A DNA stretch of 44,302 nucleotides from Myxococcales bacterium (GTDB lineage: Bacteria > Myxococcota > Myxococcia > Myxococcales > Myxococcaceae): contig JADLDB010000078.1 of assembly GCA_020846875.1 (NCBI GenBank), positions 1-44,302 of the forward strand. The letters are read 5' to 3'. The translations under genes and the position numbers were made by a program. This document shows, piece after piece, positions 11,692-44,229 of the stretch. Under the pieces are notes generated by a model. The model saw only the letters and a list, made by a program, of their open reading frames with translations, did not search any database and was not told where the DNA came from. Numbering within the stretch: position 1 is the stretch's first letter; each line of letters starts with the position of its first letter.

Positions 11692-13788
11692 CTAGTGGCT
11701 GCCCTCCGTGCCCTTCCCGGTGCCCAGCCGCCCCACGGCCGACGACGCGGCGTCGCGCACGCGGCGGTAGTAGTCGCCCTTGAGCGCGTCGATGGCCTCG
11801 AGGTGCTGGGAAGCGCCGAGCCGGCCCAGTGCCTCTGCGGCGGCCGCACGGACCTCGGGGCGATCGCTGTAGAGATCGCGCGCCACCACGTCGGCCGACC
11901 GCGGATCCTTCATGCGCCCCAGCACGATGATCACCTCGCGGCGGGCCACGGCCGTCTGATCCTCGAGGAGCTGCTGCAGGGCCGGCACGGCGTCGGCCGC
12001 CTGCATCTCACCCAGGATGGACGCGGCCAGCGCTGCCTCGGCGCCGCCTTCCTTGATCAGCGCCACCAGCGCGGGCACCCCGTCGCGGGGAGGCGCGACT
12101 GCGCGCAACGGCTCGAGCAGCCGGGTGCGATCGCCCGCAAGCTGCCCGACCGTCTGCAGCACCACCCGCTGTCCGTCCGGCCCCGAGTCCACGAGGGCCT
12201 GGGCGGTGGCGCCCTGCACTGCGCGCTCGCCGTCGACGAGCCCTTCCTTCGCGTCCTCACTCAGGGCAGCCAGCGCCACCCACGCCGCGGCCCGCAGCGA
12301 CACGCTGCCGTCGCGGGTGAACGGCTGCACCTTCTCGCGCGCCCCGGCCACCTTCAGCTTGCCCAGGGCGCGGACGAGAGCGGCCAGCACCTTGAGCTGC
12401 TCCTCGGTGCCGTCGTCCACCACCTCGCGCGGGGCGCGAGGCTTGACCAGCGTCTTGCCTGCCTCCTGCGCGCGCTGCGCGTCGAGGGCCTCGATCCGCT
12501 TGAAGAGCTCGCTGGTGCGGCTCTTGACGATCGCCGATGGATCGTTGAGGGGGAGCGGCTGCGAGGGATCGAACCCGGGCGCGAAGGTGGCGGGCAGCTC
12601 GGCGGGGATCCAGTCGGCGCGGACGGGCTCCAGGGCCTTCACCTCGGCGTCCCAGGCCTTGAGCAGCGCTGCTGCGGACGAGGGATCGCCCAACTCGGCC
12701 AGGGCGTCGACGGCCAGCTTGCGCGTCTGCGCGTCGCTGGAGGTGAGAAAGGGGACGACCTTCGGCGCCAGCTCCTTGAGCGCGGGCCCGAGCGCGACGA
12801 TGGCGGCCAGGGCGGGCTGTGGGGCACCAGACTTGAGCTTCTCTTCGATCGGCTCGACGGGGCAGCCGCCTCGCCGGCGCATCTCCCGGCCGGCGGCCAG
12901 CACGTCCTGATCGCTGCCGGTGAGGACGAGCTCGCAGAGGGCCTTTGCAGTCTGGGGGCTCTTCGGCAGCGCGATCATCGCGGCGGTGGCGAAGGGGCTG
13001 GTGGGGCTCTTCTCCTGGGCGACGGCCAGCAGCTTGGGGAGCGCGGACTCGTCTCCGAGGGCGGCCAGGGCCTCGCAGGTGGCCTCGCGCAGCTCGGGGA
13101 AGTTCTCGTCGAGGAGCGCGGTGATCGCGGGCACGGCGCGGGCGTCGCCGGCGAAGCCCAAGCCTCGGGCGGCGGCGGCGGCGAGGACGACCTGGTTGTC
13201 CTTGAGGAGGGGGACGAGGCGGTTGACGGCTTCGGGGCGGCCGGAGCGGCCCAGCTCCTCGGCGGCGCCGACGCGCTCGGGGAGGGTGCCGTCCTGGAGC
13301 ACCTTGACGTTGCGCTCCCAGATGGAAGTGGCCTCGGCGGCGACGACGGAGGCCATGGCGCCGGGCATGTTGGCGCCCTTGAGTCCCTGGACGATGGCGA
13401 GCCGGGTGGAGCGGCCGCGGCGGGAGTACTGCAGGGTGAGGTACCCACGGGCCTTGGCGGACTTGAAGCTGGCGAGGGCGGCGGCGGCCTTGAGCTGGAC
13501 CTGCTCGTCGGTGTCGCCCAGGGCCTCGCCGAGGAGATCGACGACGCGCTCGTCCTGGCTCTTGCCGAGGGCGGTCATCGCCTCGGCGCGGACGATGGGG
13601 ACGGGATCGCGCGCGGCCTGGGTGAAGAGGCTCACGTCGTCGGCATCGAACTTCTCCGCGAGCTGCTTGACGGCGAGGGCGCGGACTTCAGGGCGTGCGC
13701 TCTGGAGATCGGCGATCAGCTTGTCGCGGCCGCTGGAGCACCCGAGGGCGAAGCTGGCAATGAACGCGAGGAGCGCCCGGCGCGACAT
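11692..13788 (-). CDS. HEAT-repeat lipoprotein
   Basis: This is a 698-residue protein with a lipoprotein signal (LLAFIASFALGCSSG, Cys17). Nearly the whole mature protein is built of alpha-helical HEAT/PBS-lyase-like repeats of ~30 residues. Examples are the segments with RPEVRALAVKQLAEK, VPIVRAEAMTALGKS and DPRSADVVARDLYSDRPEVR. A less regular section (~370-450) interrupts the array. It is probably a periplasmic or membrane-attached solenoid scaffold for protein-protein contacts. It is the penultimate gene of the minus-strand run and almost abuts the TPR/cNMP gene, which suggests the two proteins share a process. Function is unknown. Confidence 0.9.
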   Translation of the reverse strand: MSRRALLAFIASFALGCSSGRDKLIADLQSARPEVRALAVKQLAEKFDADDVSLFTQAARDPVPIVRAEAMTALGKSQDERVVDLLGEALGDTDEQVQLKAAAALASFKSAKARGYLTLQYSRRGRSTRLAIVQGLKGANMPGAMASVVAAEATSIWERNVKVLQDGTLPERVGAAEELGRSGRPEAVNRLVPLLKDNQVVLAAAAARGLGFAGDARAVPAITALLDENFPELREATCEALAALGDESALPKLLAVAQEKSPTSPFATAAMIALPKSPQTAKALCELVLTGSDQDVLAAGREMRRRGGCPVEPIEEKLKSGAPQPALAAIVALGPALKELAPKVVPFLTSSDAQTRKLAVDALAELGDPSSAAALLKAWDAEVKALEPVRADWIPAELPATFAPGFDPSQPLPLNDPSAIVKSRTSELFKRIEALDAQRAQEAGKTLVKPRAPREVVDDGTEEQLKVLAALVRALGKLKVAGAREKVQPFTRDGSVSLRAAAWVALAALSEDAKEGLVDGERAVQGATAQALVDSGPDGQRVVLQTVGQLAGDRTRLLEPLRAVAPPRDGVPALVALIKEGGAEAALAASILGEMQAADAVPALQQLLEDQTAVARREVIIVLGRMKDPRSADVVARDLYSDRPEVRAAAAEALGRLGASQHLEAIDALKGDYYRRVRDAASSAVGRLGTGKGTEGSH

Positions 13789-14130: not shown

Positions 14131-16236
14131 CTACTTCCGGCCCGGCCGCCCGCCACGGAAGCCGCCTCCACCGCCGCCGCGCGAGGAGCCGCTCGAGCGG
14201 CCGCCGGGCTTGAAGCCGCCGGAGCGTCCGCCCGCCTTGATGCCGCCCTCGCCTGCGCCGCGCGAGAAGCCGCCAGGGCGTCCACCCGACTTGAGGCCGC
14301 CCCCGCCTCCGCCGCGCGAGAAGCCACCGCGTCCGCCAGACTTGAAGCCGCCCTTGCCTGCGCCGCGCGAGAAGCCGCCAGAGCGCCCGCCGGCCTTGGG
14401 GCCGCCTTCGCCTCCGCCGCGCGAGAAGCCGCCGCGTCCGCCGGACTTGAAGCCGCCCTTGCCTCCGCCGCGCGAGAAGCCGCCAGAGCGCCCGCCGGAC
14501 TTGAAGCTGCCCTCGCCTCCGCCGCGCGAGAAGCCGCCACGTCCGCCGGACTTGAAGCCACCCTCGGCTCCGCCACGCGAGAAACCGCCACGTCCACCGG
14601 CCTTGAAGCCGCCCTCGCCTCCGCCACGCGAGAAACCGCCGCGCCCGCCGGACTTGGGGCCGCCTTCGCTTCCGCCGCGCGAGAAGCCGCCAGAGCGTCC
14701 GCCGGACTTGGGGCCGCCTTCGCTTCCGCCGCGCGAGAAGCCGCCAGAGCGTCCGCCGGACTTGGGGCCGCCTTCGCTTCCGCCGCGCGAGAAACCGCCG
14801 CGTCCGCCGGACTTGTAGCCGCCCTCGCCTTCACTTCGGGACCGTCCGCCTGACTTGAAGCCGCCCTCACCTCCGCCGCGCGAGAAGCCGCCGCGCCCGC
14901 CGGACTTGAAGCCGCCCTCGCCTTCACCTCGGGACCGTCCGCCTGACTTGAAGCCGCCCTCACCTCCGCCGCGCGAGAAGCCACCGCGCCCGCCGGACTT
15001 GTAGCCGCCTTCGCCTTCCCCGCGGGACCGTCCGCCTGACTTGAAGCCGCCCTCACCTCCGCCGCGCGAGAAGCCACCGCGCCCGCTGGACCTGTAGCCG
15101 CCTTCGTCTTCTCCGCGAGACCGTCCGCCTGACTTGAAGCCGCCCTCACGTCCGCCACGGGAGAAGCCACCGCCTCCACCGGCCTTGAACTCGCCCTCGC
15201 CTTCACCGCTGGAGCGCCTGTCCGACTTGAAGCCACCCTCGCCTCCGCCGCGGGAGCGTCCCCCAGGCTTGAAGCTCCTTTCGCCCCCGCCGCGCGAGAA
15301 GCCGCCAGCGCGCCCACCGGACCTGTAGCCGCCTTCGCCTCCGCGACGCGACAAGCCGCCGCCCTCGCCTGATTGGAAGACTGCTTCGCCTTCGGCACGC
15401 TCCGGCGCAGCACGCGCTGCACTCTTCTCGCCCTCCCCCTCTCCCCAGGGGGAGAGAGGGACTTCGCCATGTCCGTGCCGCCGCGCCGGCAACATCAGCT
15501 CGGGCTCAGCAAGCGCCTGCCCGTCCGCCACCACCTTCACCCGCCGCACCTCGTCCGCCGTCAGCTCGCGCAGCTCCCCCGGCCGAAGGCCCTTCACCGA
15601 CAGCCCCGCGTGCGCCGGGCGGAACAACCGCACCACCGGGTGGCCGATCGCCGCGCACAACCGCTTGATCAGGTGCTGGCGCCCCTCCGTCACCACCAGC
15701 TTGAGCCAGGTGTTGCGATCCGCCTTCTCGTAGATCGCCGCCTCCACCGCCTGCGCCATGCCGTCCTCGAGGCGCACGCCTTCCAGCAGCCGCTTCAGCG
15801 ATCCCTCGTCCGGCTCGCCCTTCACCTTCGCCAGGTACACCCGCGGCACCTGGTGCTTCGGGTGCATCAACTTGTTCGCCGTCTCGCCGTCGTCCGTCAC
15901 CAACAGCGCGCCTTCCGCGTCGAAGTCCAGGCGCCCCACCGGGAACACCCGCATGCCCGCGCTCTTCGTGAAGTCGGCGATCGTCACCCGCCCCTGCGGA
16001 TCGGACAGCGTCGTCACCACCGCGGGCGGCTTGTAGAGGAGGAACCAGTGCCGCTCGCTCGACGCCTCGACGGGCCGCCCGTCGACCACCACCAGGTCCT
16101 TGCCCGGCTCGATGCGCGTGCCCAGCACCGTCACCACCTCGCCGTTCACCTTCACCCGGCCGGCGGTGATCAACTCCTCCGCGTGCCGCCGCGAGGCCAG
16201 CCCCGCCCGCGCCAGGTACTTCTGAAGCCGCTCCAT
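14131..16236 (-). CDS. rluB: RluB/RsuA-family rRNA pseudouridine synthase with ~430-residue RGG-like tail
   Basis: Residues 1-250 are a complete pseudouridine synthase of the RsuA/RluB/E/F group. An S4 RNA-binding domain (MERLQKYLARAGLASRRHAE) is followed by the catalytic motif GRLDFDAEGALLVTDDGE, with nucleophile Asp104, and an EGRQHLIKRL segment. Members isomerise a uridine in 23S or 16S rRNA; RluB is the best guess because of the scpAB-rluB neighbourhood, common in many bacteria. Family enzymes are usually ~240-300 residues, but this one is 701. From ~275 to the end it is a low-complexity array of GGFSRGG, GGFKSGGR and SRGEGEGGYK units. Residues 260-270 are encoded by a dispersed palindromic repeat. 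It starts 13 bases after scpB. Confidence 0.93.
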   Translation of the reverse strand: MERLQKYLARAGLASRRHAEELITAGRVKVNGEVVTVLGTRIEPGKDLVVVDGRPVEASSERHWFLLYKPPAVVTTLSDPQGRVTIADFTKSAGMRVFPVGRLDFDAEGALLVTDDGETANKLMHPKHQVPRVYLAKVKGEPDEGSLKRLLEGVRLEDGMAQAVEAAIYEKADRNTWLKLVVTEGRQHLIKRLCAAIGHPVVRLFRPAHAGLSVKGLRPGELRELTADEVRRVKVVADGQALAEPELMLPARRHGHGEVPLSPWGEGEGEKSAARAAPERAEGEAVFQSGEGGGLSRRGGEGGYRSGGRAGGFSRGGGERSFKPGGRSRGGGEGGFKSDRRSSGEGEGEFKAGGGGGFSRGGREGGFKSGGRSRGEDEGGYRSSGRGGFSRGGGEGGFKSGGRSRGEGEGGYKSGGRGGFSRGGGEGGFKSGGRSRGEGEGGFKSGGRGGFSRGGGEGGFKSGGRSRSEGEGGYKSGGRGGFSRGGSEGGPKSGGRSGGFSRGGSEGGPKSGGRSGGFSRGGSEGGPKSGGRGGFSRGGGEGGFKAGGRGGFSRGGAEGGFKSGGRGGFSRGGGEGSFKSGGRSGGFSRGGGKGGFKSGGRGGFSRGGGEGGPKAGGRSGGFSRGAGKGGFKSGGRGGFSRGGGGGGLKSGGRPGGFSRGAGEGGIKAGGRSGGFKPGGRSSGSSRGGGGGGFRGGRPGRK
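14155..15370 (-). repeat. Degenerate tandem repeats encoding the Gly/Arg/Ser tail of RluB
   Basis: The 3' part of rluB is an array of related units, about 50-60 bases each, encoding GGFSRGG-EGGFKSGGR-type peptides. Exact 54-bp copies lie at 14656-14709 and 14710-14763, and a third copy begins at 14764. Other units alternate with a SRGEGEGGYKSGG type. All units keep the reading frame (54 = 18 codons), so copy-number change would lengthen or shorten the tail without disrupting the enzyme. Long open frames on the other strand and in other frames here are by-products of the repetition. Confidence 0.9.
15436..15461. repeat. Dispersed palindromic repeat, copy 1 (inside rluB)
   Basis: An inverted repeat CCCTCTCCCC (15437-15446), A, then GGGGGAGAGAGGG (15448-15460) lies within the coding sequence of rluB. 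It encodes PLSPWGEGEGE at the junction between the enzyme and its tail. A related copy lies at 19660-19683 in the end of xerD. Short G-rich palindromes of this type, recognisable by peptides such as LSPxGEGEGE or PSGERARER, are scattered through many GC-rich genomes. Confidence 0.7.
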
Positions 16237-16249
16237 GATGACCTTCTCT

Positions 16250-17215
16250 TCAGCCGTTGTCCGGCGTGGTGGGCGGCGACCCGCTGCCCGGGGGTTGCTG
16301 GTCCGGTGGAGGCTCGGGCGGATTGAGCACCTTGTCCGCCGTCTTCGAGGTCACGTCGGCGCGATCGATCGCCTGCTCCAACTCCGCGAGCGCCGCCTCC
16401 GAGGCCTTGTCCGCGTCAGCGACCCGCTGCTTGAAGGACGCGTCGGACAGCTCGTCGACGATCCCCGTCACCGGCTTCGGGGCCTCCTTCTCGACGATCT
16501 CCCGGCTCTCCTCGGTGAGCTCCTGGAATTCCCGCAGCGTGGGCAGCGCGTTCAGATCCTTGAGCGCGAAGAACTCCAGGAACTCGCGCGTGGTGCCGTA
16601 GAGGATCGGCCGGCCGACCTCCTCCTTCTTGCCGACGATCTTGATGAGGCGCCGATCGAGCAGCGCCTTCAAGACCGCGCCCGAGTCCACGCCGCGAATG
16701 TCCTCGATTTCTGGCCGCGTCACCGGCTGGCGGTAGGCGATGATCGCCATCGTCTCCACCGCGGCGCGGGTGAGCCGCTGGGGCTTCACCTTGAGGAAGC
16801 GGCGCACGTACTCGCTCGACTCCGGCGCGGTGCGGAACTGCCAGCCGCCCGCCACCTCGGTCAGCACCAGGCCGGACACGCCTTCGCGGCGATCGCCCTG
16901 CAGCGCCTCCAGGCCCTTCTGGATCTTCTCCCGCTCGATGCCGGTGGCCTCGAAGAGCTGATCGAGGGTGAGCGGCTGCGGCGCCACGAAGAGCACGCTC
17001 TCCAGCACGTTCTTCACCTGCTTCGCAGTGAGCCTCCGCGAGTGGGCGACGAGCTTCTCGAACGGCGTCTCCTGCTCGGTGGCGTCGATTTCCGCCGCGT
17101 CGACGTCCTCGAGCTCGGGGTCGCCCGCCGGCCCCTGGGTGACCGCCGCCACCTCTTCCTCGGAGAACTGCGCCGGTCCGCCGCTGCCGGGATCGCCGGC
17201 CTTATTGGTACTCAC
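16250..17215 (-). CDS. scpB: Segregation and condensation protein B
   Basis: This is a 321-residue protein starting at a GTG. ScpB is the winged-helix dimer (kite subunit) that, with ScpA, joins the SMC ATPase ring to compact and segregate the chromosome. The core at ~residues 60-245 shows the family pattern: [70 protein letters not shown] and [16 protein letters not shown]. It is longer than the usual ~180-220 residues because of an acidic N-terminal extension (~60) and a C-terminal tail (~75) ending in proline-rich sequence. It overlaps the end of scpA by 14 bases, so the two are translationally linked. Confidence in identity is high. Confidence 0.96.
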
Positions 17216-18071
17216 CTTCGATGTCCTCCGCGGTGTGCGTGTCTTCGGTGCCGAAGTGCGAGAGCGCCTCGGGGCGTCCGCTGATCAGAATGTCGTCGCC
17301 GTCGTCCGCCTGGAAGACGCGCAGCAGCCGGTGCTTGCACATCTCCAGCAGCGCCAGGAAGGTGATCACCACCTGGCTGCGGACGCGCTGCCCCTCGAAG
17401 AGCGCGAAGAAGCTCACCCGCCCGGCTTCTGCCCCGCGCACCTTCGCGGCGATGTTGTACATGGCCTGGGTGAGCGACAACCGCTCGCGCATCACCTCGT
17501 GCTGCTTCTGCGGCTCGAGCGCCTTGAGCACCCGATCGAGCGCCTCGATCAGCTTGTAGATCGACAGCTCCTGGAGGCCGATCTCGTCCGGATCGAGCGG
17601 CACCTGCTCCTGGCGCACCTTCCGGGTGAACACCATGCGATCGAGGATGTCGGCCTGGAGCAGCTGATCGGCGGCGGCCTTGTACTTCTGGTACTCGAGC
17701 AGCCGGCGGACCAGCTCGGCGCGCGGATCGAGCTGCTCCTGGCTGGCGTCGGCGCCGTCCGCCAGCGCGGCCTCATCGCGCGGCAGCAGCATGCGCGACT
17801 TGAGGTGCAGCAGGGTCGACGCCATCACCAGGAACTCCCCGGCGATGTCCAGGTTGATTTCCCGCATCAGCTCCAGGTGCGCGAGGTACTTCTCGGTGAT
17901 CAGCGCGATGGGGATGTCGAGGATGTCCAGCTTGTGCTCGCGGATCAGGTGCAGCAGCAGATCGAGCGGCCCCTCGAAGTTGGGCAGCGCGATGCGGAAG
18001 GCGTCGCGCGGGGCGATCACCTCGTTCAGCGCATCGTCCGGTGCAGGACTCACGTCCTTCACGTCAGCCAC
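17202..18071 (-). CDS. scpA: Segregation and condensation protein A (kleisin)
   Basis: This is a 289-residue protein starting at a GTG (residues MADVKDVS). It carries the kleisin signature FEGPLDLLLHLIREHKLDIL, followed by IPIALITEKYLAHLE and GEFLVMASTLLHLKSRMLLP, and a C-terminal winged-helix segment (VVITFLALLEMCKHRLLRVFQ). ScpA bridges the heads of the SMC dimer and recruits ScpB. It leads the scpA-scpB-rluB group, 81 bases downstream of trpS. That gap has no evident terminator, so transcription probably continues from upstream. Confidence 0.96.
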   Translation of the reverse strand: MADVKDVSPAPDDALNEVIAPRDAFRIALPNFEGPLDLLLHLIREHKLDILDIPIALITEKYLAHLELMREINLDIAGEFLVMASTLLHLKSRMLLPRDEAALADGADASQEQLDPRAELVRRLLEYQKYKAAADQLLQADILDRMVFTRKVRQEQVPLDPDEIGLQELSIYKLIEALDRVLKALEPQKQHEVMRERLSLTQAMYNIAAKVRGAEAGRVSFFALFEGQRVRSQVVITFLALLEMCKHRLLRVFQADDGDDILISGRPEALSHFGTEDTHTAEDIEGEYQ

Positions 18072-42111: not shown

Positions 42112-44229
42112 GTGCGTCTCCTCGTGGTTGTTGTCTTCGTCCTGACCGCGGAGGCCCTCGCAGCGCCTCCGGTGATGACCAACCTGAATCCCGCCTCGCG
42201 GCCGTCCGCCCGCACCGGCCCCGGCGTGGCCGCCAATCGAGTCAGCGGGGGCGAAACCATCTTCCTCTTCGGGGGCAACGCCACCCTCAGCGGCACCAAC
42301 AACCAGCTCTGGTCCTACGGCGTCGGCGCCAACACCTGGACGCAGCACAGCCCAGGCGGCACCGCGCCCACCGCGCGCGCGTGGCACAACCTCACCTGGG
42401 ACGAAGGCCAGCAGCGCCTCGTCCTCTTCGGAGGCAGCGCCGCCCTCGCCGGCCCCCTGCGCAACGACGTGCACCTCTACAACCCCGCGACCGACACCTG
42501 GTCGCAGCCGACCGTCTCCGGCACGCCTCCCTCCGCGCGCTTCCTCGCCAACATGTTCTACGTACCGTCGATCGCCTCACACCTGCTCGTCTTCGGCGGC
42601 ACCGGCACCTCCAGCAACGCCGAGGCCACCGTCCTCACCAACGAGCTCTGGCGCCTCACCATCAACGCCACCACCAACAGCGCCACCTGGACCCTGCTGT
42701 CCCCCTCCGGCCCCCTGCCCGTCCCCCGCGCCAGCGCCTGCATGGGCTTCGATCCGGCGCGCAACCGCCTGATCGTCTTCGGCGGTGAGATCATCAACGA
42801 CACCATCACCGAGACCGCCCAGTACGACGTCGCCTCCAACACCTGGTCCATCGACACCGCCGGCGGCGCGGCGCCCACCAAGCGCGGCTCCGCGGTGTGC
42901 AGCTTCGACGAGCGCAGCGGGAAGCTCCTCCTGTACGGCGGCGTCTCCACCCCCAGCGGCAGCCCGATGGGGGCCGCGTACAGCTACGATCCCGTCGCCC
43001 GCTTCTGGAGGCAGCTCTCCCCTTCCCCCAACCCCGGCAACCTCACCTTCGCCGGCCCCTCCTGGAGCGCCGGCCTGGGCGCCGTCTTCTTCTTCGGCGG
43101 GCGCAACTCGCTGATCAGCGTCTCCCAGGCCACCTGGACCTTCCGCGCCAACGCCCCACCCGTCCTCCTCGTCACCTCGCCCGTCAGCTTCGGCGAGAAC
43201 ACGATGGCCACGCTCAGCGCCGCCGCGTCGTCGGATCTCGACGGTGATCCCCTCACCTACACCTGGACGCAAACCCAGGGCCCGCCCGTCACCCTCACCA
43301 ACCCCACCACTGCCACGCCGTCCTTCACCACGCCGTCCGTCCTGGCCCCCACTCCCCTGGCCTTCGCCGTCAGCGTCACCGACGGCGTCGAGTCGGCCGA
43401 CGGAGGCGTCTCCGTCACTATCCTCGACGACGTGAACGAGCCGCCCGTCGCCGACGCCGGCCCCAATCAATCGGCCTCGAGCGGCAACCTCGTCTCTCTC
43501 AGCGGATCCGCCTCGTTCGATCCCAACGGTGAGCCGATCACCTTCCAGTGGACGCAGAGCGGCGGGCGCATGGTCACCCTGGCCACGCCCACCTCAGCCA
43601 CCACCCGCTTCACCGCGCCTGGCGTGCCAGCCACCGAGACGCTCACCTTCCTCCTGACCGTCAGGGATTCGCGGATGGGCGCGGGGATGGACTCCGTGTC
43701 CGTGGACGTCTCTCCAGGTGCCGGCGGAGGCGCCGGGGGCGGTGGTGGCACCGGGGTTGATGCGGGGGGTGGCGGAGGTGCAGGCACTGACGCTGGCGGC
43801 GGCGGGATGGGCGGTGGCATGGGCGGCGGCATCGGCGGCGGGATGGGCGGCGGGATGGGCGGCGGCGGCGCGGGAGGCGGAGCTGGAGGCAGCACCGGCA
43901 CTGACGCCGGCCCGGACGACGGCGGCGCCGACGCAGGCGAGAGCCCTGACGGCGGCGACGACGGTGGACTTCCCAGCGACGGTGGACTTCCCAGCGACGG
44001 TGGACTTCCCAGCGACGGTGGACTTCCCAGCGACGGTGGACTCCCCAGCGACGGTGGACTCCCCAGCGACGGTGGGCTTTCGGAAGACGGGGGCACCGCT
44101 GACGCAGGCCCCGGCAGTCCGAAGAGCCTGACGGTCGGCTGCGGCTGCTCCACCACGCTGGACTGGCCCCTGGCGCTGCTGATCCTCACCGCCGGCCTCA
44201 CCCGGAGACGGCGCCGCGCCCCTCCCTGA
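42112..44229 (+). CDS. Kelch-repeat surface protein with Ig-like domains and MYXO-CTERM signal
   Basis: This is 705 residues from a GTG. A signal peptide (LLVVVVFVLTAEALAAPP) precedes Kelch-type beta-propeller blades at ~25-345, each with a strand such as ETIFLFGGN, QRLVLFGGS, SHLLVFGGT, NRLIVFGGE or GKLLLYGGV followed by W-x-x-L or NTW. Two PKD/cadherin-like domains follow (LTYTWTQTQGPPVTLTNPTT; then PPVADAGPNQSASSGNLVSL and ITFQWTQ). Next is a long Gly/Asp/Ala linker (GGGMGGGMGGG, then six LPSDGG copies). The protein ends with a MYXO-CTERM signal: VGCGCSTTLDW, a hydrophobic helix and TRRRRR. It is therefore predicted to be displayed on the cell surface through myxosortase processing. A carbohydrate or adhesion ligand is plausible but not shown. 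Confidence 0.92.
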   Translation: MRLLVVVVFVLTAEALAAPPVMTNLNPASRPSARTGPGVAANRVSGGETIFLFGGNATLSGTNNQLWSYGVGANTWTQHSPGGTAPTARAWHNLTWDEGQQRLVLFGGSAALAGPLRNDVHLYNPATDTWSQPTVSGTPPSARFLANMFYVPSIASHLLVFGGTGTSSNAEATVLTNELWRLTINATTNSATWTLLSPSGPLPVPRASACMGFDPARNRLIVFGGEIINDTITETAQYDVASNTWSIDTAGGAAPTKRGSAVCSFDERSGKLLLYGGVSTPSGSPMGAAYSYDPVARFWRQLSPSPNPGNLTFAGPSWSAGLGAVFFFGGRNSLISVSQATWTFRANAPPVLLVTSPVSFGENTMATLSAAASSDLDGDPLTYTWTQTQGPPVTLTNPTTATPSFTTPSVLAPTPLAFAVSVTDGVESADGGVSVTILDDVNEPPVADAGPNQSASSGNLVSLSGSASFDPNGEPITFQWTQSGGRMVTLATPTSATTRFTAPGVPATETLTFLLTVRDSRMGAGMDSVSVDVSPGAGGGAGGGGGTGVDAGGGGGAGTDAGGGGMGGGMGGGIGGGMGGGMGGGGAGGGAGGSTGTDAGPDDGGADAGESPDGGDDGGLPSDGGLPSDGGLPSDGGLPSDGGLPSDGGLPSDGGLSEDGGTADAGPGSPKSLTVGCGCSTTLDWPLALLILTAGLTRRRRRAPP
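43960..44067 (+). repeat. Six tandem copies of an 18-bp unit (LPSDGG)
   Basis: The unit GACGGTGGACTTCCCAGC is repeated six times in register (43960, 43978, 43996, 44014, 44032, 44050). Copies 1-4 are identical, and copies 5 and 6 differ by one base (CTCCCC for CTTCCC). A seventh, diverged unit begins at 44068. It encodes the linker of the Kelch protein just before the MYXO-CTERM signal. Confidence 0.93.

Follow-up and report, generated by a model that had tools for sequence, protein, structure and literature searches.

An RluB-type pseudouridine synthase, encoded in the analysed stretch of DNA (44,302 nucleotides, referred to as the window), carries a C-terminal tail of 461 residues, which contains tandem Gly/Arg/Ser/Phe units and is predicted to be intrinsically disordered over its whole length. 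A long tail is the majority state in the GTDB family of the source; it is no artefact and no isolated case. Judged by its substitution pattern, the tail is under natural selection at the protein level; composition and short motifs are kept, a fixed sequence is not. By analogy, the most likely role of the tail is that of a multivalent, low-specificity RNA tether that holds the enzyme on pre-50S particles or nascent 23S rRNA, a reading to which we assign a probability of about 0.5.

The enzyme core and its genomic context

The gene codes for 701 amino acids and is located on the minus strand of the window (14131–16236), with the TAG stop codon at 14131–14133. The gene order at the locus is scpA-scpB-rluB. 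Both scpB (16250–17215, minus strand; Pfam SMC_ScpB and TIGR00281 above its cut-off) and scpA (17202–18071, minus strand; Pfam SMC_ScpA) are directly upstream neighbours. A HEAT-repeat protein of 698 residues is encoded directly downstream (11692–13788, minus strand). The segment 9305–11689 on the same strand codes for a protein with TPR matches at its N-terminus, a long linker rich in Pro and two cyclic-nucleotide-binding domains.

Residues 1–240 (15517–16236, minus strand) comprise the S4 and the catalytic domain and are modelled with pLDDT values of 77–93. The Pfam domain S4 matches residues 2–46 and PseudoU_synth_2 matches residues 63–196; in combination with the catalytic Asp (in GRLD) and Tyr, these are the hallmarks of the family. 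TIGR00093, which represents the RsuA/RluB pseudouridine synthases, matches residues 68–226 with 147 bits and thus above the cut-off of 109.3 bits for family membership. D104 and Y134 are invariant in an alignment of 14 sequences, and their positions match those of Asp110 and Tyr140, the catalytic residues of E. coli RluB (PMC3919597). Among solved structures, E. coli RluB is nearest by sequence, followed by RsuA and RluF. The U2605-specific RluB equivalog NF007976 gave the best score among the named equivalogs (142.3 bits), yet this score is below the cut-off of 290 bits of a model that covers the E. coli-type protein. The name RluB-type is therefore preferred to RluB sensu stricto. According to these matches, the enzyme is an RluB-type 23S rRNA pseudouridine synthase, which agrees with what a reading of the letters alone (the sequence-only reading) had stated.

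Composition, repeats and predicted disorder of the tail

The tail follows residue 240 and consists of 43% Gly and 13% Arg; it is also rich in Ser, Lys, Glu and Phe. Its first approximately 70 residues form a linker (15310–15516, minus strand) of near-neutral charge, with a net charge per residue of −0.03 compared to +0.13 for the remaining tail. The linker opens with an LPxRRHG junction motif, which is seen across the tails of the family. It further contains an in-frame, near-perfect palindrome of 22 bp (15437–15458, no strand assigned; 0 expected by chance), located between enzyme and array at the place of an APGFE stretch that is conserved in sister genera. A palindrome family was rejected as the origin of the array, since similar palindromes are few in the same genome and this one sits in the linker, outside the repeats.

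The basic Gly/Arg/Ser/Phe array (14134–15410, minus strand) was characterized by means of TRF, direct repeats, motif counts and AlphaFold2. Its tandem units have lengths of 51, 54 and 93 bp, and the longest exact repeat comprises 95 bp at an offset of 54 bp; the source genome is a draft of 200 contigs, in which the exact copy number of the repeats is unproven. The sequence-only reading had described in-frame 54-bp tandem repeats with exact copies. The frame and the exact copies were confirmed; the single period was not. A mix-up of frame or strand was rejected, since the frame of the enzyme continues without a stop and the constraint described below falls in that frame.

RGG occurs 27 times, GGF 28 times and FSRG 16 times in the tail, compared to shuffle means of 10.8, 5.9 and 0.2 and shuffle maxima of 19, 12 and 2, respectively. 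RGG/GGR and GGF tripeptides are thus more frequent than the composition would yield, as is characteristic of RGG/GAR domains. The 461 residues contain no FG dipeptide. With respect to the resemblance to RGG/FG domains that had been proposed, the RGG component holds, whereas the term FG-like is inexact for the source species. Intrinsic disorder, the other property of RGG/GAR domains considered here, is predicted in line with the earlier claim: the AlphaFold2 model is confident up to about residue 250, and the pLDDT is below 50, with no secondary structure, over approximately residues 254–697.

With the tail as query, no second copy was matched in the same genome at the sensitivity of that search, and a comparable tail is absent from the two paralogues that score above the TIGR00093 cut-off. 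Two DEAD-box helicase-type proteins of this genome (L203 and L205) have R/E-rich low-complexity segments at their C-termini. The idea that they share the tail type of the rluB-type gene was rejected, as their disordered parts are R/E-rich and not of the Gly/Phe type. Two more tandem arrays are found near the right end of the window (43797–44079), namely GGCGGCGGCATG in 5.8 copies and the 18-bp unit CGACGGTGGACTTCCCAG in 6.7 copies. The sequence that follows them resembles a short, Cys-containing, hydrophobic and Arg-rich C-terminus of the MYXO-CTERM kind.

Distribution of the tail

Among named records, Myxococcaceae/Archangium assemblies are closest, with 71–77% identity. An RluB orthologue is present in all 83 good-quality genomes of the same GTDB family. 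The tail reaches 270 residues or more in 71 of 94 family orthologues; another 16, with fewer than 80 tail residues, were counted as tail-less, and 7 end at a contig edge after 88–174 tail residues. Fifteen of the long-tailed orthologues originate from single-contig assemblies, and the tails of relatives in such genomes are as long as or longer than that of the source. An assembly artefact, against which the sequence-only reading had cautioned, was therefore rejected.

At the level of genera, the tail is long in 13 of 26, short in 8, and open at a contig end in 5. RluB had been said to end normally at residues 250–300, and stop codons near residue 270 in close relatives had been named as the observation that would speak against the tail. 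Such short forms are what the 8 genera display; the 13 long-tailed genera contradict this expectation, and 5 are cut by the contig end. The normal length applies to E. coli and to the sampled Bacillota, but not to the family of the source with its long-tailed majority. In the sampled Bacillota and at nearly all other sampled loci, no more than about 25 residues follow the core; the two exceptions have 70 residues.

Mapped onto a tree built from the enzyme core, the tail trait requires about six changes, at least four of which are forced by starred branches; this count is rough, as it takes in order-level relatives and as one locus cut by a contig end (L009) was scored as short. In the rest of the phylum, tails are mostly short. 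Arg-rich tandem tails that are nearly free of aromatic residues occur at L235 (G162), L249 (G137) and L250 (G134) and in some f5 genomes. For example, the tail of G162 has 227 residues and is made of RGRPMSDSRGARPE units.

Selection on the tail

The repeats of different genera could not be aligned by eye, and no peptide motif is conserved between genera inside the arrays, with the exception of the LPxRRHG junction. Across 13 genera, the tail in its coding frame has a net charge per residue of +0.10 (sd 0.02), a content of aromatic residues (FYW) of 0.057 (sd 0.011) and a content of aliphatic residues (ILVMC) of 0.021 (sd 0.006). For the other five frames of the same DNA, the sd of the charge is 0.04–0.08 and the aliphatic content is 0.09–0.18. 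In all 13 genera, the first 70 tail residues are nearly neutral or acidic and the remainder is basic. In 12 of the 13, the aromatic residues are more evenly spaced than in shuffles, which is partly due to tandem repetition.

Nucleotide-only alignments of 18 close pairs yielded 351, 296 and 1958 mismatches at codon positions 1, 2 and 3, respectively, so that 75% are found at position 3. The length of 185 out of 219 indels in these pairs is a multiple of three, and several correspond to whole units, e.g. of 45 bp. The median dN/dS by genus is 0.09–0.23 for the tail and 0–0.17 for the core; the tail values are only approximate, because the dS of the tail is two to five times that of the core, as would be expected if units turn over or were mispaired. 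All 20 shuffles fold more stably than the repeat RNA (z +5.5, by a method that does not model quadruplexes), and an RNA structural element in the repeat is therefore unsupported. Taken together, the codon-position pattern, the dN/dS of the tail and the weak folding of the repeat RNA argue for a constraint that acts on the protein.

These data have to be weighed against the view that the tail is a tolerated by-product, i.e. that GC-rich sequence was duplicated in tandem at a C-terminus that the enzyme can do without, and that the product is merely soluble and harmless. Such an origin would be in agreement with the confinement of long tails to GC-rich genomes in this sample, with fast repeat turnover and variable lengths, and with the existence of tail-less close family members. 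However, GC3-matched tail-less genera exist too, so that GC content alone is insufficient. The low dN/dS and the excess of mismatches at codon position 3 also speak against a mere by-product, as does the fact that only the coding frame has a tight composition, in which Phe and Trp are retained and aliphatic residues depleted. We consider this explanation unlikely.

Similar arrays in other bacteria

Examples of similar arrays from other phyla were drawn from the records of a plasmid collection only and form a small sample. Four species of Paracoccus possess Phe-spaced tails of 205–272 residues on cores that are 96.6–100% identical to the query. This spread of tail lengths on near-identical cores is a sign of rapid copy-number change. 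The prediction that tail length varies was thus borne out between close relatives, both by these species and by the whole-unit indels described above. Shinella has a tail of 306 residues with a similar make-up, and an RluB-family enzyme from Xanthomonas sacchari has a Gly/Arg/Gln-rich tail. In Nonomuraea, a DRFGGR-type array is located on the N-terminal side, ahead of the enzyme. The tails of Pseudorhodobacter and S. meliloti are short or modest.

The RluB-family enzymes of Paracoccus, Shinella, X. sacchari and Nonomuraea share Arg-rich low-complexity extensions with the source enzyme, and regularly placed Phe residues are common to the arrays of Paracoccus, Shinella and Nonomuraea. In contrast, their repeat sequences and lengths differ from those of the source tail, and the extension of Nonomuraea is N-terminal. 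Because the repeat sequences differ, convergence is the best reading of the charge and aromatic content that the arrays have in common, and long RluB tails probably arose separately in other bacteria rather than by common repeat ancestry. A broader proposal is that GAR-like, aromatic-spaced disordered arrays were gained repeatedly on RluB-type enzymes (at the C-terminus in Myxococcaceae and Alphaproteobacteria, at the N-terminus in an actinobacterium) and gather the enzyme in a nucleolus-like rRNA body; in function, they would have converged with the tails of eukaryotic fibrillarin, GAR1 and snoRNPs. This proposal is tentative and rather unlikely to be correct.

Possible role of the tail in rRNA modification

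Given the selection at the protein level and the recurring composition, the tail is likely to have an RNA- or ribosome-related role. As indicated by 8 genera of the same family and by most other sampled bacteria, whose enzymes are tail-less, the tail is not needed for the reaction itself. RNA binding, recruitment to the pre-ribosome and an effect on modification are what we infer for the tail by analogy. In E. coli, a degradosome mutant shows an enrichment of RluB on 50S/40S assembly particles (PMC9848016), and the disordered KKE/D tails of yeast snoRNPs promote accumulation near nascent rRNA as well as rRNA modification (PMC11528048).

A tether could work as follows. Tandem duplication would lengthen a disordered, positively charged tail with spaced aromatic residues. 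Arg and Lys, together with evenly spaced Phe and Tyr on a Gly/Ser chain, could grip nascent 23S rRNA or pre-50S particles. Tethering would raise the local concentration of the enzyme by the target stem-loop, which would be recognised by the S4 and the catalytic domain. With selection acting on composition and short motifs, the units would be free to be copied or lost.

Condensate formation would be an optional addition to this tether. Taken as the main function, it would mean that the array is a scaffold, which phase-separates with rRNA and puts RluB in a nucleolus-like assembly body. The regular spacing of aromatic residues in 12 of 13 genera and a basic Arg/Gly-rich array that succeeds a neutral or acidic linker are compatible with a scaffold as regards sequence make-up, and eukaryotic snoRNP tails that are able to self-interact and condense provide a precedent (PMC11528048). 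However, repetition accounts for part of the even spacing, and the data are explained by tethering alone; a scaffold is accordingly quite unlikely. Alternatively, the tail might chiefly bind a protein partner via charge, e.g. another assembly factor or a helicase. The succession of a neutral or acidic part and a basic array would suit such a contact, and R/E-rich disordered segments are also carried by DEAD-box helicases from this genome. That only the LPxRRHG junction is kept between genera speaks against a specific folded partner site, and we regard a protein partner as improbable. That the repeat acts as RNA, or that the protein binds its own G-rich mRNA, is conceivable because the codons for RGG motifs are G-rich and rG4s can encode the very RGG motifs that bind them (PMC11789052), but with weakly folding repeat RNA and with synonymous sites that vary freely while residues are kept, it is extremely improbable.

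Comparison with known systems

The enzyme family and the short disordered tail of RluB are already known. The nearest published counterparts of the source tail are that short tail in E. coli and, among eukaryotic snoRNP proteins, the GAR and KKE/D tails. A bounded search of the open-access literature, which covered titles, abstracts and a few passages, returned no description of long bacterial RluB arrays. E. coli RluB, the 23S rRNA pseudouridine-2605 synthase (4lab/4lgt), has the S4 domain and the catalytic core in common with the source enzyme. Its tail comprises about 40 non-repetitive residues, compared to 461 residues with tandem units in the source. C-terminal disorder is predicted for both enzymes, and the short E. 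coli tail is poorly conserved (PMC3919597).

The GAR domains of fibrillarin and GAR1 are likewise Gly/Arg-rich disordered extensions on rRNA-modification machinery, and that of fibrillarin has a role in localisation (PMC7194090). These proteins are eukaryotic and unrelated to the source enzyme, and the likeness of their extensions to its tail is one of composition only. The arginine methylation and nuclear import roles of eukaryotic GAR domains are, to our knowledge, not known for bacteria. The KKE/D tails of yeast snoRNPs are also disordered, charged and attached to rRNA-modification machinery; however, they are rich in lysine and acidic residues, whereas the source tail is rich in Gly, Arg and Phe, and their role has been established experimentally in yeast, whereas that of the source tail is proposed by analogy.

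The bacterial system offers a tractable test of why rRNA-modifying enzymes bear low-complexity tails. Tailed and tail-less species occur in one family, natural length variants exist, and it should be feasible to delete the C-terminus in Myxococcus, which is genetically workable. If the tail does recruit the enzyme to nascent rRNA, the nucleolar tails of eukaryotes and the bacterial tails would be independent solutions to the same problem.
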